Shown piece by piece: positions 18,744-33,158 of a stretch of 64,000 nucleotides of DNA. Both the position numbers and the translations under genes were made by a program. The stretch's first letter is position 1. Each line of letters begins with the position of its first letter. The stretch covers positions 62,001-126,000 of the forward strand of contig JACPNS010000003.1 in assembly GCA_016185345.1 (NCBI GenBank), given 5' to 3'. The notes under the pieces are model-generated. The model was not told the origin of the DNA and did no database searches. It was given only the letters and a program-made list of their open reading frames with translations. This DNA comes from Solirubrobacterales bacterium (lineage in GTDB: Bacteria; Actinomycetota; Thermoleophilia; Solirubrobacterales; JACPNS01).

Positions 18744-19411
18744 TCGACTTGAAGGTCGTGGACGACGTCGCAGCCGAAGCAGCAACACGCATCGCGGCCG
18801 TGGCCGAGGCGGGCGGATCAATCGTGCTCGCAGGCGGCTCCACGCCAGAGAAGGCGTACGAGATTGCATCGGCCGCCGACTGGTCGCGAGCCAAGGTCTG
18901 GTTCGGTGACGAACGTTGCGTCCCACCAACCGACGAGCGCAGCAACTTCCGCATGGCCAAGGAGGCGTTGTTCGATCGGCTCGCCGCGCCGCCGCTTGCG
19001 ATCTTCCGCATGCCCGGTGAACTTGATCCCGACGAAGCAGCGCACCAGTACGCCGCCGAAATCTTCGAGCACGACGCCGAGCCCTTCGACCTCTTGCTGC
19101 TCGGGATCGGTGCCGACGCGCACACGGCGTCGCTGTTTCCGGGCAAGCCCGAGATCTCACAGCGCAATCTGCTGGTGACCGGGGTGCCGGAAGCTGGCCT
19201 CGATCCATTCGTTCCGCGCGTCACGTTGACTGTGCCCGCACTCGTCCGAGCGAAGGAGATTCTCTTCTTGATTGCCGGTGCGAGCAAGGCCGGTCCCGTG
19301 AAGGAATCGTTCGCGACCGAGCACTCGATGACGCCTGCCGGGATCGTCGCTCGCAAGGCGCGTGGGCGCGTGACCGTTCTGCTTGATGCGGCAGCCGCGA
19401 ACGAACTCTGA
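18740..19411 (+). CDS. pgl: 6-phosphogluconolactonase
   Basis: Hydrolyses 6-phosphogluconolactone, the product of Zwf, 223 residues of the DevB/SOL type. Visible motifs: IVLAGGSTPEKAYE near residue 30, VWFGDERCVPPTDERSNFRM, and LLLLGIGADAHTASLFPG. Its ATG overlaps the opcA stop (ATGA). It is the last gene of the block; 226 bases follow before csbD, and I saw no clear terminator there. Confidence 0.95.
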   Translation: MIDLKVVDDVAAEAATRIAAVAEAGGSIVLAGGSTPEKAYEIASAADWSRAKVWFGDERCVPPTDERSNFRMAKEALFDRLAAPPLAIFRMPGELDPDEAAHQYAAEIFEHDAEPFDLLLLGIGADAHTASLFPGKPEISQRNLLVTGVPEAGLDPFVPRVTLTVPALVRAKEILFLIAGASKAGPVKESFATEHSMTPAGIVARKARGRVTVLLDAAAANEL

Positions 19412-19570
19412 AGCAGCTCGGCCTCCGCCCAGTTGGGTTCTGTACCTGAAGATCGAGCTGAAGGACCGACTCGGATGAACACGGTCAGCCGCGCTTCAGA
19501 TCGAAGCAAATTTGGGCGATCGGCAAAAACTCTCCATGGGCACGGTCCGTCGAGAACCCGCAACTTGGGG

Positions 19571-19596
19571 GTTTCCGGCTCAGCCAAGATGGGCAA
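19571..19596 (+). promoter_or_regulatory. SigB/SigF-like promoter before csbD
   Basis: GTTTCC, a 14-base spacer and GGGCAA match the general-stress sigma pattern GTTT-N12-16-GGGTAT with one mismatch in the -10 and two in the -35. It lies 41 bases before the csbD ATG, which has its own AAGGAG ribosome binding site. CsbD proteins are classic SigB-regulon members, which makes the match more believable. The genes behind it are tightly spaced, so it may drive the whole csbD-ligase-Ku-polymerase set. Confidence 0.55.
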
Positions 19597-19637
19597 AACA
19601 CCGTCGTAAGCAACTAAACGCAACGAAGGAGATCAAG

Positions 19638-19817
19638 ATGGCTGATACAACCGAATTCAAGGGTCGAGTGAAGGAAGCCGCCGGCGATCTAACCGATGAC
19701 AAGAGTCTTCAGCACGAAGGCAAGGCCGACCAGGCCTCGGGAAAGCTCAAGGGCAAGATCGATGACGCCGTCGACAAGGTCAAGGACGTCATGCACAACG
19801 ACAAGGACAATGCGTAA
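19638..19817 (+). CDS. CsbD-like general stress protein
   Basis: 59-residue hydrophilic protein of the CsbD family: FKGRVKEAAGDLTDDKSL, then EGKADQASGKLKGKIDDAV, with charged C-terminal repeats. Such proteins are abundant in stressed or stationary cells; their molecular role is unsettled. The start follows a strong ribosome binding site (CGAAGGAGATCAAG). First gene of a compact rightward set: the next start is only 6 bases beyond its stop. The SigB-like promoter in front fits induction by general stress. Confidence 0.88.
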   Translation: MADTTEFKGRVKEAAGDLTDDKSLQHEGKADQASGKLKGKIDDAVDKVKDVMHNDKDNA

Positions 19818-19823
19818 GTCCTC

Positions 19824-20234
19824 ATGAAGCTCTTGGTTGTCGCATCCGAACCGATTGACGGATCAGCCGTGGAGCTGATCACCAAGGACGAGACGCCCGA
19901 CGAAGTCCGGGTCATTGCCCCAACGCTGACCGGGTCTGCGCTGCGCTACTGGATGAACGACACCGACAAGGCGATCGAGCATTCAGAGCATGTGGTCGCC
20001 GAGTCGGTCAACGAGCTCGACGACGCCGGAATCTCCGCGGCGGCCCACCCGGTCACCGACGACGAACCGGCAGTCTCGATCGACGATGCCCTGCGGGTCT
20101 TCAGCCCGGACCGCATCGTTGTGGTCAAGCATGGCCGCGGCGACGAGGCCTACCGCGAGGATCAGATCGTCGGAGAGATTGAAGGCTCGACCGACGTTCC
20201 GGTGGAAGTGTTTGCAGTCGACGCGACTGCCTGA
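19824..20234 (+). CDS. UspA-like small protein (paralogue of the 32676-33158 gene)
   Basis: 136 residues, no signal peptide or membrane helix. It begins MKLLVVASEPIDGSAVELI and has an alternating strand/helix pattern like universal stress proteins: VRVIAPTL, then SALRYWMNDTDKAIEHSE, a strand near AAAHPVTDDEP, IDDALRVFSPDRIVVVKHG and a final VPVEVFAVDA. It shares the order VxxANE/VASE, V(V/I)APTL, an IDSA/TDKA helix and a D-x-I-(I/V) strand with the second copy at 32676. Its role is unknown; it lies between csbD and the DNA ligase, which suggests a stress function. Confidence 0.7.
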   Translation: MKLLVVASEPIDGSAVELITKDETPDEVRVIAPTLTGSALRYWMNDTDKAIEHSEHVVAESVNELDDAGISAAAHPVTDDEPAVSIDDALRVFSPDRIVVVKHGRGDEAYREDQIVGEIEGSTDVPVEVFAVDATA

Positions 20235-20245
20235 TCCCAGACCCC

Positions 20246-21187
20246 GTGGAAGATTCGTCACCCACGTTTGGACTCTCGCCCATGCTGGCAACTCTCGGCG
20301 AGTTGCCGCAGGGCGAAGAGTGGGTCTACGAAATCAAGTGGGACGGCGTGCGCGCGCTGGCGCGTATTGATCGCACCGGCCGCAAGCGCGAACTCCGCCT
20401 GACCTCGCGCAATCACAACGACCTCACCGCGCGCTATCCGGAGCTGCAGGACCTCGCTTCGGCGATGCCTACTCGGTCGCTCCCAGTGCTGCTCGATGGC
20501 GAGGTTGTTGCGTTCGACGACAAGGGCAAGCCGAACTTTGGCCTGCTTCAGCAGGGGACGCGCTCCGCGACCTTCGCGATCTTCGACCTGCTCGTCGAGC
20601 GAGGCGAGGTGCTCACCGGTCTGCCCTGGGAAGAGCGACGGGCACGGCTTGAAAAACTTGGCGTCACCGCAGCACATGCTTCGGTGCCCGGCGTCTACGA
20701 AGACGGCCCCGAGCTTCTTGATCAAATGATCGACCGCGGGATGGAAGGCGTGCTGGCCAAGCGCCGAGCGGGCACATATCGACCGGGCAAGCGCGCAGGG
20801 GACTGGACCAAGGTCAAGCCGAAGCCGCGTCAGGAGTTTGTTATCGGTGGTTGGACCGACGGCAGCGGGGGGCGCACGGGCACGCTCGGCGCACTGCTCC
20901 TTGGCTACTTCGAGGGCAAGAAGCTCAAATACGCCGGGAACGTCGGAAGCGGACTTGGCGGGGCAGATCTCGCAGAACTCGACGATCTGCTTGCGCCGTT
21001 GGCAACTGAATCCAATCCGTTTGATTCAGCTGTACCGAGCAGGAACACGCACTTCGTCAAGCCCAGGCTCGTCGCCGAGATCGAATACGGCGAGCTGACT
21101 GCGGCAGGCCACCTACGGCATCCGGTCTACTTGGGTCTGCGCGACGACAAGCCGGCCCGCAATGTGACTCTCGAAAGGAAAGCCTGA
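20246..21187 (+). CDS. ATP-dependent DNA ligase (LigD ligase-domain type)
   Basis: Seals DNA ends in Ku-dependent non-homologous end joining, 313 residues. The nucleophile motif is EIKWDGVRA with Lys31; motif III-like LLDGEVVAFD, motif IV GVLAKRRAGTYRPGKR and motif V DWTKVKPKPRQEFVIGG are present. A C-terminal OB-fold (YAGNVGSGL, PRLVAEIEYGELT) completes the catalytic unit. The GTG start at 20246 is 11 bases after the previous stop. It is a stand-alone ligase; in many bacteria this domain is fused to the polymerase inside LigD. The stop overlaps the ku ATG by one base. Confidence 0.93.
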   Translation: MEDSSPTFGLSPMLATLGELPQGEEWVYEIKWDGVRALARIDRTGRKRELRLTSRNHNDLTARYPELQDLASAMPTRSLPVLLDGEVVAFDDKGKPNFGLLQQGTRSATFAIFDLLVERGEVLTGLPWEERRARLEKLGVTAAHASVPGVYEDGPELLDQMIDRGMEGVLAKRRAGTYRPGKRAGDWTKVKPKPRQEFVIGGWTDGSGGRTGTLGALLLGYFEGKKLKYAGNVGSGLGGADLAELDDLLAPLATESNPFDSAVPSRNTHFVKPRLVAEIEYGELTAAGHLRHPVYLGLRDDKPARNVTLERKA

Positions 21188-22116
21188 TGTCAGCGACCAA
21201 GAAGAGGGCTCCTGCAAAGAAGAAGCCTGCCGCCGCGAAAAGGCGCTCGGCCAGCCCCACACCCGGATCGGCCGGAAAGAAGCGCCATCCGGCCTGGCAG
21301 GGCTCGATCAGCTTTGGCCTGATCAACGTGCCGGTGCTGCTCTTCAACGTGACCACGAGTCACCGAATCGCCTTCAACCAACTCGACGACAAGGACCACG
21401 CGCGAATCAAGCAGAAGCGAGTCTCATCTGAGACGGGCAAAGAAGTCGAGTACGAACACATTGTCAAGGGCTATGAGATCGAGCCGGACAACTACGTGAT
21501 CCTCGAGAAGGAAGAACTTGACGCGCTCGACCCCGAGCGCTCGTCCGCTATCGAACTCGAGTCGTTCATCGACGCATCCGAGATAGACCCGCTCTACTAC
21601 GAGGCGAGCTACTTCGCAATGCCAGGCAAGAACGCGGCCAAGCCGTATGCAATGTTGCGGGACGCAATGGCCGCCGAGAATCGCGCCGCAGTTGCGCGCC
21701 TGGTGATGCACCAGAAGGAACACCTTGTGGCGCTCTGGCCGCGCGGCGACATGCTTGTTGTCTCGACGCTTCACTTCTTCGATGAGGTGACCGATCCAGG
21801 CGAACTTCCCGGCGGTCCCGGGCCGACCACCACCGCCAAGGCCGCCGAGCTCAAGGCAGCACGGCAGCTTGTGCAGGCGCTCTCGGACGACTTCGACATC
21901 AAGCAGTACCGCGACGAATACCGCGAACTGGTGCTTGAGCTGATTGAGAAGAAGGCCGAGGGCCGCAAGATCTCAAGGCCCAAGAAGGCAGCGGACAAGA
22001 AGCCGGTCCCGGACCTGATGGCCGCGCTGGAGGAGAGTCTGAAGGACGTCGGCAAGCGCAAGACGAGCCCACGCAAGCGTGGAAGTTCTGGCGCGCACAA
22101 GACGAAGGCTCACTGA
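21187..22116 (+). CDS. ku: Ku protein for DNA end joining
   Basis: Homodimeric ring protein that binds double-strand DNA ends and recruits LigD-type enzymes, 309 residues. Family features: WQGSISFGLINVPVLLFN, then IKQKRVSSETGKEVEYEHIV and ILEKEELDALDPERSSAIEL, with YYLAP-like ALWPRGDMLVVSTLHFFDEV. It has Lys/Arg-rich tails at both ends (KKRAPAKKKPAAAKRR and RKTSPRKRG); basic C-terminal tails are known to aid DNA binding in bacterial Ku, whereas the basic N-terminal tail is less usual. It lies between the ligase and the polymerase genes. Confidence 0.96.
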   Translation: MSATKKRAPAKKKPAAAKRRSASPTPGSAGKKRHPAWQGSISFGLINVPVLLFNVTTSHRIAFNQLDDKDHARIKQKRVSSETGKEVEYEHIVKGYEIEPDNYVILEKEELDALDPERSSAIELESFIDASEIDPLYYEASYFAMPGKNAAKPYAMLRDAMAAENRAAVARLVMHQKEHLVALWPRGDMLVVSTLHFFDEVTDPGELPGGPGPTTTAKAAELKAARQLVQALSDDFDIKQYRDEYRELVLELIEKKAEGRKISRPKKAADKKPVPDLMAALEESLKDVGKRKTSPRKRGSSGAHKTKAH

Positions 22117-22117
22117 C

Positions 22118-23029
22118 ATGCCGAAGGGCGCGCCGCGCGAAGTCGACGTTGACGGCCACCGCGTCGAGTTGACGCACTTGGACAAAGTTCTCTACGAGGC
22201 CAACGGGTTCACCAAGGCGCAGATGCTCGACTACTACTCGCGGATCGCCGACGTGATGATCCCGCACATCAGGGATCGCGCAGTCACGCTCAAGCGCTAC
22301 CCGCACGGCGCCGGCGGGCAGTTCTTCTTCGAGAAGAATTGCCCAGACTACCGGCCCAAGTGGATGAAAACAGTCGACATCTACTCAGCGAGCAGCGAGC
22401 GAGAGGTCAACTACTGCGTGATCAACGATCGTGCCTCGCTCATTTGGCTCGCCAATCAGTCGACGATCGAGTTCCACGCACCGATGGCCCTTCGGCGCTC
22501 GGTAGATCGTCCGCGGGCAATCGTCTTCGACCTCGATCCCGGCCCAGGGATGACCTCGATCGAATGTGCCGAGATCGCGCTCGTGCTGCGCGAGCGTCTC
22601 GCTGCCGACGACCTTCAGTCGTTCCCGAAGTCATCGGGTTCAAAGGGGGTCCACGTGCTGGTGCCGCTGAATCGCGCACGGATGACCTTCGATCGCACCA
22701 AGCGCTACGCACACAAGATCGCCGACGAACTTGCGAGTGAACGAGACGACGTGGTCGCGAAGATGAGTAAGGCATTGCGCAGGGACCACGTCTTCATCGA
22801 CTGGAGTCAGAACAGCACTCACAAGACGACAGCTGCCGTCTACACGCTGCGCGCCGCGGCGCAACCGACGGTGTCGGCGCCACTTACGTGGGGCGAGCTG
22901 GAAAAGTCCGTCGACACGGGCAACAGCGAACTCTTGCTGCACACGACAGACGACGTTCTAGAACGCGTAAAGGACGTCGGCGATCTCTTCGCCGACGTCC
23001 TGAGCCTTGAGCAAGCGCTCCCGCGCTGA
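22118..23029 (+). CDS. LigD-type primase-polymerase
   Basis: Archaeo-eukaryotic primase-like polymerase that fills and extends DNA ends in end joining, 303 residues. Landmarks: VELTHLDKVLYEANGFTKAQ, then MLDYYSRIADVMIPHIRDR, the metal-binding aspartates in IVFDLDPGPGM, SGSKGVHVLVPL, and VFIDWSQNSTHKTTAAVYTL. It begins one base after the ku stop. No phosphoesterase domain is encoded here, so the repair set is ligase, Ku and polymerase only. Confidence 0.92.
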   Translation: MPKGAPREVDVDGHRVELTHLDKVLYEANGFTKAQMLDYYSRIADVMIPHIRDRAVTLKRYPHGAGGQFFFEKNCPDYRPKWMKTVDIYSASSEREVNYCVINDRASLIWLANQSTIEFHAPMALRRSVDRPRAIVFDLDPGPGMTSIECAEIALVLRERLAADDLQSFPKSSGSKGVHVLVPLNRARMTFDRTKRYAHKIADELASERDDVVAKMSKALRRDHVFIDWSQNSTHKTTAAVYTLRAAAQPTVSAPLTWGELEKSVDTGNSELLLHTTDDVLERVKDVGDLFADVLSLEQALPR

Positions 23030-23043
23030 GCTGCGCTACTGGA

Positions 23044-23181
23044 TCAGGCTTCTCGAATAACGAGAAGAAAGACAAGAATTGCGAGCACCAGTCCAACGAT
23101 TCCACCGACCGCTGCGCTCACGAACTGCGCAAGCAAGACGCCGATGATTACTACTGCGACGAGCCAAAGAATGCCCATCAT
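23044..23181 (-). CDS. Small hydrophobic membrane protein, 45 residues
   Basis: A short frame with two consecutive ATG codons (23181 and 23178) after a GAGGTGG ribosome binding site. The product MMGILWLVAVVIIGVLLA has one hydrophobic stretch, then QFVSAAVGGIVG and a second stretch LVLAILVFLLVI ending REA. It looks like a two-helix membrane peptide of the kind often seen near stress genes (for example DUF1328-like or GlsB-like), but I cannot assign a family. Convergent with the polymerase gene and divergent from rpiB. Confidence 0.7.
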   Translation of the reverse strand: MMGILWLVAVVIIGVLLAQFVSAAVGGIVGLVLAILVFLLVIREA

Positions 23182-23303
23182 TGATCCACCTCTGCGCGTT
23201 TCCATTGTGAAAACACCCCTATCAGTCGCGTTCGCTAGGCCGGATGGCGAAGCATTGCTTGGGATCTACCCACGATGAATCGGCGACAAACCGTTTGAGC
23301 AGT

Positions 23304-23309
23304 TAGCGT
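23304..23309 (+). promoter_or_regulatory. rpiB -10 hexamer TAGCGT
   Basis: TAGCGT lies 7 bases before the ATG at 23317, the leaderless spacing. This favours 23317 over the in-frame GTG at 23308, which would overlap the hexamer. Confidence 0.5.
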
Positions 23310-23316
23310 GTTGGGC

Positions 23317-23778
23317 ATGAAAATCGCTTGCGCTTTTGACCATGCGGGTTTTACTCTCCGGGACGAAGTACTCGGTGCGGTTGTCGCGTCCGGCCACGAG
23401 GTGATCGACATGGGGGTGCGTTCGGCCGAGCCGGTGGACTACCCCGACGTCGCGCGGAAGGTTGGGCGCGCCATCTCGAACGGCCTCGCCGAACGCGGGA
23501 TTCTCGTCTGCGGCTCCGGCGCCGGCGTCTCTGTCGCTGCCTCGAAGATCGATGGAGTCCGCGCGGCGACGATTCACGACGAGTACTCCGCTCATCAGGC
23601 CGTCGAACACGACGACGTCAACGTGCTCTGCCTCGGATCACGCGTTATCGGTGGGGCGCTGGCCAAAGAAATCGTCGCCCGCTTCCTCGCGGCGGAGGTC
23701 AGCAATGAAGAGCGCCACGTGCGCCGCCGTGCAAAGACCGCCCAGATCGAGTCCGAGAACCAGCGCCTGCGCGTTTAA
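23317..23778 (+). CDS. rpiB: Ribose-5-phosphate isomerase B
   Basis: Interconverts ribose 5-phosphate and ribulose 5-phosphate, completing the pentose phosphate set found 4 kb to the left. 153 residues, LacAB/RpiB family. MKIACAFDHAGFTLRDEV gives the phosphate-site histidine, and the catalytic Cys65 is in LVCGSGAGVSVAASKI. DDVNVLCLGSRVIG is the other conserved block. A charged C-terminal tail of about 20 residues (RRRAKTAQIESEN) extends beyond the fold. It ends 10 bases before the SGNH hydrolase start. Confidence 0.95.
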   Translation: MKIACAFDHAGFTLRDEVLGAVVASGHEVIDMGVRSAEPVDYPDVARKVGRAISNGLAERGILVCGSGAGVSVAASKIDGVRAATIHDEYSAHQAVEHDDVNVLCLGSRVIGGALAKEIVARFLAAEVSNEERHVRRRAKTAQIESENQRLRV

Positions 23779-32675: not shown

Positions 32676-33158
32676 CTAGGCCGCCGCAGGGACACGCACG
32701 GCCCGAGCTCTCTTATGGACCGTGATGTGCGAGGTGGGAAGTTCAAAACGCCCCCTCGCGCGGGCGACGATGTCGTGCGCCAACCAGTGCGAATGCTCGG
32801 GCGCGTGGGTTGAGATGATCAGTTCGTCGGCCGGAAAAGTGCGCAGCAGGTCCTCGATCGCCTGGAGAGGATCTGCGTCGCCGACCAGCCCCGTGGCATC
32901 CACCCCGCGAACGCGGAGCCGGTCTACGCACTCGCAGAGCCGCAGCTCGGCCTCGCGCACCGCCGAGTCGATGTCGCTGAAGAGGTGCCGCAGCCGTGAA
33001 TTCAGTGTCGGCGCAACGACCAGGACCTCCGTCTGCCGAGCGAGGCCGCGACGTGAGCGCTCGCTGACCATGTCGTGCAGCTCGCTGCCGCTGCTGGTTT
33101 CGTTTGCGACCACCAGGATGCGGTGGAGACCGTCGTATGTGTTGGTGATTGTGTGCAT
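32676..33158 (-). CDS. UspA-like protein (paralogue of the 19824-20234 gene)
   Basis: 160 residues without signal or membrane helix. It opens with a short tail and then RILVVANETSSGSELHDMV, VLVVAPTLNSRLRHLFSDID, SAVREAELRLCECVDRLR, a VGDADPLQAIEDLLRTFPAD strand-helix unit, ELIISTHAPEHSHWL, and a last strand LPTSHITVHKR. The order matches the protein at 19824. The universal-stress-protein fold is likely, but the classic ATP-binding G-x2-G-x9-G(S/T) is not evident. A GATTCT hexamer 6 bases before the ATG hints at its own promoter. Confidence 0.7.
   Translation of the reverse strand: MHTITNTYDGLHRILVVANETSSGSELHDMVSERSRRGLARQTEVLVVAPTLNSRLRHLFSDIDSAVREAELRLCECVDRLRVRGVDATGLVGDADPLQAIEDLLRTFPADELIISTHAPEHSHWLAHDIVARARGRFELPTSHITVHKRARAVRVPAAA

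Follow-up and report, generated by a model that had tools for sequence, protein, structure and literature searches.

What controls the DNA end-joining genes in the 64-kb stretch analysed here (the window; G000:C3:62001-126000, from the 2.43 Mb genome G000 of an apparently uncultured actinobacterial member of the order Solirubrobacterales), and does their position behind two stress-related genes reflect a regulatory link? The non-homologous end-joining (NHEJ) genes for a LigD-type ligase (lig), Ku and a LigD-type polymerase (pol) are the last three of five closely packed genes, of which the first codes for the general-stress protein CsbD and the second for a universal stress protein (Usp)-like protein. 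A preliminary description of this DNA had proposed that NHEJ is thereby placed under general-stress control. Comparison with relatives lends support to this proposal, although the csbD-first order is not conserved and the -10 element of the putative promoter is one base off. In our view the five genes probably constitute an accessory module for general stress, in which a SigB-type sigma factor would drive csbD-usp-lig-ku-pol as one mRNA.

All five genes lie on the forward strand and are separated by 6, 11, -1 (i.e. a 1-base overlap) and 1 bases, and a rereading placed them at exactly the coordinates given before. The csbD gene (19638..19817, 59 aa) is directly preceded by a ribosome-binding site, AAGGAG at 19626-19631, and its product matches PF05532 with 56.2 bits (gathering score 40). 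The ligase gene (20246..21187, with a GTG start) codes for a stand-alone ATP-dependent DNA ligase matching PF01068, PF04679 and TIGR02779 (NHEJ_ligase_lig; 270 bits, cut-off 228). It is followed by ku (21187..22116), which matches PF02735 and TIGR02772 (Ku_bact; 290 bits, cut-off 150), and by a stand-alone primase-polymerase gene (22118..23029), which matches PF21686 and TIGR02778 (ligD_pol; 270 bits, cut-off 215). The Ku, ligase and polymerase domains of bacterial NHEJ are thus all present above curated cut-offs, and the earlier naming of csbD, ligase, ku and polymerase is borne out by the family models. In place of a single multidomain LigD, the ligase and polymerase are encoded by separate genes and lack a nuclease domain; the same lig-ku-pol layout is also common among relatives. 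Neither a sigma-70-like site nor a terminator-like site on the forward strand was recovered in 19380-23340, the latter in agreement with the preliminary description.

The second gene (19824..20234, forward strand, 136 aa) had been called UspA-like, a label that holds for the modelled fold but not for the sequence family. The protein has no Pfam match, including to Usp (PF00582), and among 14 of its relatives this profile produced weak matches in only three (best E 0.024), so that assignment by sequence family failed and the label rests on fold; its relatives show 36-45% identity to it. Foldseek searches with an AlphaFold model built from the 14 relatives, the mean pLDDT of which is only 72.7, returned Usp structures as the top PDB matches (E 1.5e-4, TM about 0.6), indicating that "Usp-like" is correct as a statement on the predicted fold. 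A diverged paralogue, 31% identical, is encoded on the reverse strand at 32721-33122 of the window (G000:C3:94721-95122). A close linkage of usp and ku in relatives was considered and rejected, as the distances range from 4 to 22 kb and some are common to one genus.

Upstream of csbD, the GTTTCC-N14-GGGCAA reported previously was found on the forward strand at 19571..19596, with the -35 element at 19571-19576 and the -10 element at 19591-19596. The -35 element and the 14-base spacer match the SigB/F type (GTTT-like, a 13-15 bp spacer, GGGTA-like), with a -10 element that is one base off. The bare motif is in itself weak evidence, because GTTT-N15-17-GGGYA occurs three times in the window against 1.12 expected from shuffles. 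All three occurrences map to one or the other edge of the island described below, ahead of csbD, ahead of a convergent small membrane gene and over the start of rpiB, the last of these being probably accidental. A considerably stronger signal comes from the other csbD genes of the order: GGGTA, the SigB -10 core, is present within 100 bp upstream of 20 of 28 such genes (a count that left out the csbD of the window), as opposed to 1.8 in shuffles, and control words in the same regions are flat. These elements are mostly positioned at -38 to -47, and the GGGCA of the window is at -47 from the csbD ATG. Dyad enumeration on the csbD upstream regions likewise recovered a clear -10 element, with a noisy -35 element. 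GGGTA also precedes 14 of 51 NHEJ operons, against 3.9 expected.

A sigma factor that could use such a site is encoded in the same genome. A single SigB/F/G gene scores above the cut-off (TIGR02980, 246 bits; contig G000:C16), and is followed by genes for an RsbW-like ATPase (HATPase_c_2) and an RsbU-like phosphatase with SpoIIE, GAF and PAS domains. As a SigB/F/G gene is found together with an RsbW-like ATPase and a SpoIIE phosphatase, a partner-switched general-stress sigma factor is, judging from this gene content, available to the organism. Four of the strict genome-wide matches to the promoter motif fall at this locus, and its GTTT and GGGTA elements recur at matching positions in two congeners (G012 and G008), with differing spacers. 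Other strict matches are found shortly before a YciE/DUF892-like gene and a PfpI/DJ-1-like gene (both named by eye) and before the small membrane gene of the island.

Comparison within the genus indicates that the block is accessory. The island between pgl and rpiB spans 19412..23297 (edges approximate) and is absent from the congener G012, in which pgl and rpiB are separated by 50 bp; in G008 an unrelated gene occupies this position. Ku is present in two of the five genomes of the genus (G000 and G016), and CsbD only in G000, where it is the sole CsbD match. In G016 the NHEJ operon sits elsewhere in the genome and reads GTTTCA-N14-GGGTAG, a small ORF, lig, ku, pol and a CBS-domain gene; roughly 1 kb upstream of it, a SigB/F/G gene is encoded on the opposite strand. 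The two Ku proteins are 65% identical, while the nearest named Ku, from a groundwater actinobacterial metagenome-assembled genome (MAG), is 62% identical to that of the window. The presence of an NHEJ set in the ancestor of the genus, with later movement, is plausible, since Ku of G000 and Ku of G016 group together with 100/100 support on a long branch. The small ORF of G016 (L032 5635-5470, reverse strand) codes for a basic protein of about 53 aa, MPPRGTRKKRDPHFGHTM..., and, lying between the SigB-type promoter and lig, takes the place held by csbD-usp in the window.

The association of ku with sigma factors extends well beyond this genus. Among 200 sampled Solirubrobacterales genomes, with SigB/F/G genes taken at E <= 1e-52, at least 28 SigB/F/G-ku pairs less than 6 kb apart were recovered in at least 25 genomes from at least 10 genera, as against 0.57 expected under random placement; these species are related, and the pairs are not independent events. 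In every listed pair the sigma gene is upstream of ku, and nearly all pairs are on the same strand. In the Conexibacter-type genomes sigB and ku are co-oriented and about 110 bp apart, with a conserved G[CG]TTG...GGGTA directly before ku; the cultured Conexibacter arvalis DSM 23288 is one organism in which the two genes are adjacent. Mapping the sigma-ku label on the Ku tree requires 9 changes, and well-supported branches force at least 5 of them; a single ancient origin with losses is also possible. The link looks to be confined to Solirubrobacterales, because none of about 27 usable named loci on the tree from outside Thermoleophilia showed a SigB-type gene in the vicinity of ku. The named Ku loci, 80 in all, came from an alignment-based scan; when one Ku protein alone was used to scan the named genomes, none were obtained.

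Linkage of csbD itself to ku is more sporadic. The preliminary description would have counted an absence of such linkage in relatives against its proposal: in three distant relatives (G038, G150 and L219) csbD does lie upstream of ku, at a distance of 1-1.5 kb, but the congeners lack csbD. The conserved gene order that it suggested looking for did not materialize, the exact csbD-usp-lig-ku-pol order having been seen only in the window and neither in the Ku loci of the order that were read nor in the 80 named loci; the candidate notion that csbD-usp is conserved in relatives was rejected. None of the relatives inspected had csbD-usp adjoining lig. A cluster of sigB, csbD and ku recurs at L130 5000-11500 (G038), L131 (G150) and L219. 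Genes found around ku in other members code for CsbD, HAD phosphatases, ferritin-like proteins, STAS proteins and topoisomerase IB; the HAD phosphatase gene is present in both L130 and L131, and the ferritin-like, topoisomerase IB and STAS genes in L130. These three clusters may represent a wider stress and DNA-protection neighborhood. Two further sequence elements, one TGCAA/GCAAG-like and the other a GAAGAAT-like box, are found repeatedly upstream of ku, no more than about 60 bp away, in several genera (L145, L212, L234, L003, L041-L045, L131 and L170), and possibly define a second, damage-related or housekeeping, control of ku.

Taken together, these observations support stress control of NHEJ, because GGGTA is enriched before csbD genes, the genome has its own SigB partner-switch locus, a SigB-type promoter precedes lig-ku-pol in G016, and SigB/F/G genes lie near ku in many genera. 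Under the proposed mechanism, stress would free the SigB/F/G-type sigma factor through the switch of RsbW-like anti-sigma factor and SpoIIE/RsbU-like phosphatase, and RNA polymerase carrying it would initiate at the promoter at 19571-19596. The resulting single mRNA would encode CsbD, the Usp-fold protein, the ligase, Ku and the polymerase, and Ku with the two split LigD enzymes could then rejoin double-strand breaks without a template. End joining would in this manner be timed to dormancy, desiccation or general stress, conditions under which the cell may have no second copy of its chromosome.

Several observations weigh against this interpretation. The -10 element of the window, GGGCAA, differs from the GGGTA of the lineage by one base (T to C), which is a genuine weakness. 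The strict motif shows no excess genome-wide (19 matches, and 19 for the reversed control), and the full two-part motif is rare before NHEJ operons (2 of 51, against 0.43 expected). The sigma gene of this genome is on another contig and not beside ku. All four congeners lack csbD, three of them also lack Ku, and relatives do not share the gene order. The promoter contexts of the window and G016 are alike (AACCCG-N10-GTTTC...GCTCAGCCA), but their resemblance is only moderate, with 6 of 3000 shuffles aligning as well.

In one alternative explanation, the SigB-like site is incidental. As the operon begins 226 bp after pgl on the same strand, with no terminator-like site on that strand in between, it could mainly be transcribed by read-through from zwf-opcA-pgl, i.e. 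in step with growth and with NADPH metabolism; the expected frequency of the bare motif in 64 kb would allow a chance match. This is unlikely given that the congener G012 lacks the block at pgl/rpiB, that the G016 operon, though located elsewhere, is again behind a SigB-type promoter, and that the -10 element of the window occupies the position typical of csbD promoters.

The accessory nature of the block might alternatively point to an acquired stress-survival island, the parts of which moved together, with lig-ku-pol using a promoter of its own inside usp and being free of general-stress control. The separation of csbD-usp from lig in the relatives seen and the many relatives with lig-ku-pol but no csbD are compatible with this; yet the gaps amount to only a few bases, no sigma-70-like site was found inside the operon, and sigma genes occur near ku far above chance, all of which render this account quite improbable. 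Least probable, in our assessment, is that the proximity of ku and sigma genes is merely a consequence of gene-dense stress islands, with ku being induced by DNA damage and not by SigB. The many stress genes around ku and the TGCAA-containing element recurring before it in several genera would fit such a scenario; the adjacent and co-oriented sigB and ku of the Conexibacter type, with a SigB-like site between them, argue against it. The stress-module interpretation remains the one we favor.

The far edge of the island carries a further gene, convergent with the NHEJ operon, which codes for a small hydrophobic membrane protein (23044..23205, reverse strand; an ORF with a ribosome-binding site). 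A better start is at 23181, after AGAGGTGG. The protein is 45-53 aa long, and no Pfam family was found for it. The gene has its own SigB-type promoter-like site with a strict GTTT...GGGTA match, GTTTGTCGCCGATTCATCGTGGGTA (23267..23291, reverse strand), which faces into the island from the far side; the whole genome holds just 19 such strict matches.

It is an open question why only some bacteria retain NHEJ and under which circumstances it is used. The presence of the repair genes behind stress genes and a putative stress-type promoter in the window, along with the many relatives in which ku lies behind a sigma gene, suggests that this lineage switches on DNA end joining within its stress and dormancy response. 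This soil lineage is large, little studied and represented in culture by several members, and a genomic tie of ku to general-stress sigma factors within it would permit a direct test of bacterial end joining as a stress or dormancy function. In a broader and evenly poised proposal, NHEJ across Solirubrobacterales would be wired to SigB/F/G-type sigma factors, sometimes to an adjacent gene of its own (sigB-ku in Conexibacter). The window would then be a derivative with the sigma gene off-locus and the stress genes and promoter kept, and this part of the dormancy program would have arisen separately from EcfG and SigG.

Stress-controlled NHEJ is already known elsewhere, under SigG and EcfG; the literature searched, which included few subscription journals, yielded neither a csbD-usp-lig-ku-pol operon nor a SigB/F/G-ku neighborhood in Solirubrobacterales. 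In Sinorhizobium meliloti, NHEJ is reportedly raised in stress and stationary phase under other regulators (Dupuy et al. 2019, NAR 47:1335). The Bacillus subtilis ykoV-ykoU operon is forespore-specific with SpoVT, encodes one fused LigD and is not known to include csbD or usp. This Ku-LigD pair is under SigG (PMC3656841), and parallels what is proposed for the window in that NHEJ is tied to a sigma factor of the SigB/F/G family. In Sphingopyxis granuli, the EcfG general stress regulon directly includes csbD as well as ku-ligD, with ku expression falling to 0.16 in an ecfG2 mutant (PMC7083833). As proposed for the window, csbD and NHEJ are tied to one general-stress system; however, the regulator is an alphaproteobacterial ECF sigma and not a SigB/F/G factor, LigD is encoded by one gene, and csbD (SGRAN_3063) and ku-ligD (SGRAN_4136/4135) are at separate loci (PMC7083833). 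The split NHEJ genes of Streptomyces resemble those of the window in being actinobacterial and in coding for stand-alone ligase and polymerase domains without a nuclease domain, but are scattered, with no sigma link reported in the portion of the source consulted (PMC5124664). If the interpretation favored here is true, SigB/F would constitute a third, separate route to stress-controlled NHEJ beside EcfG and SigG.

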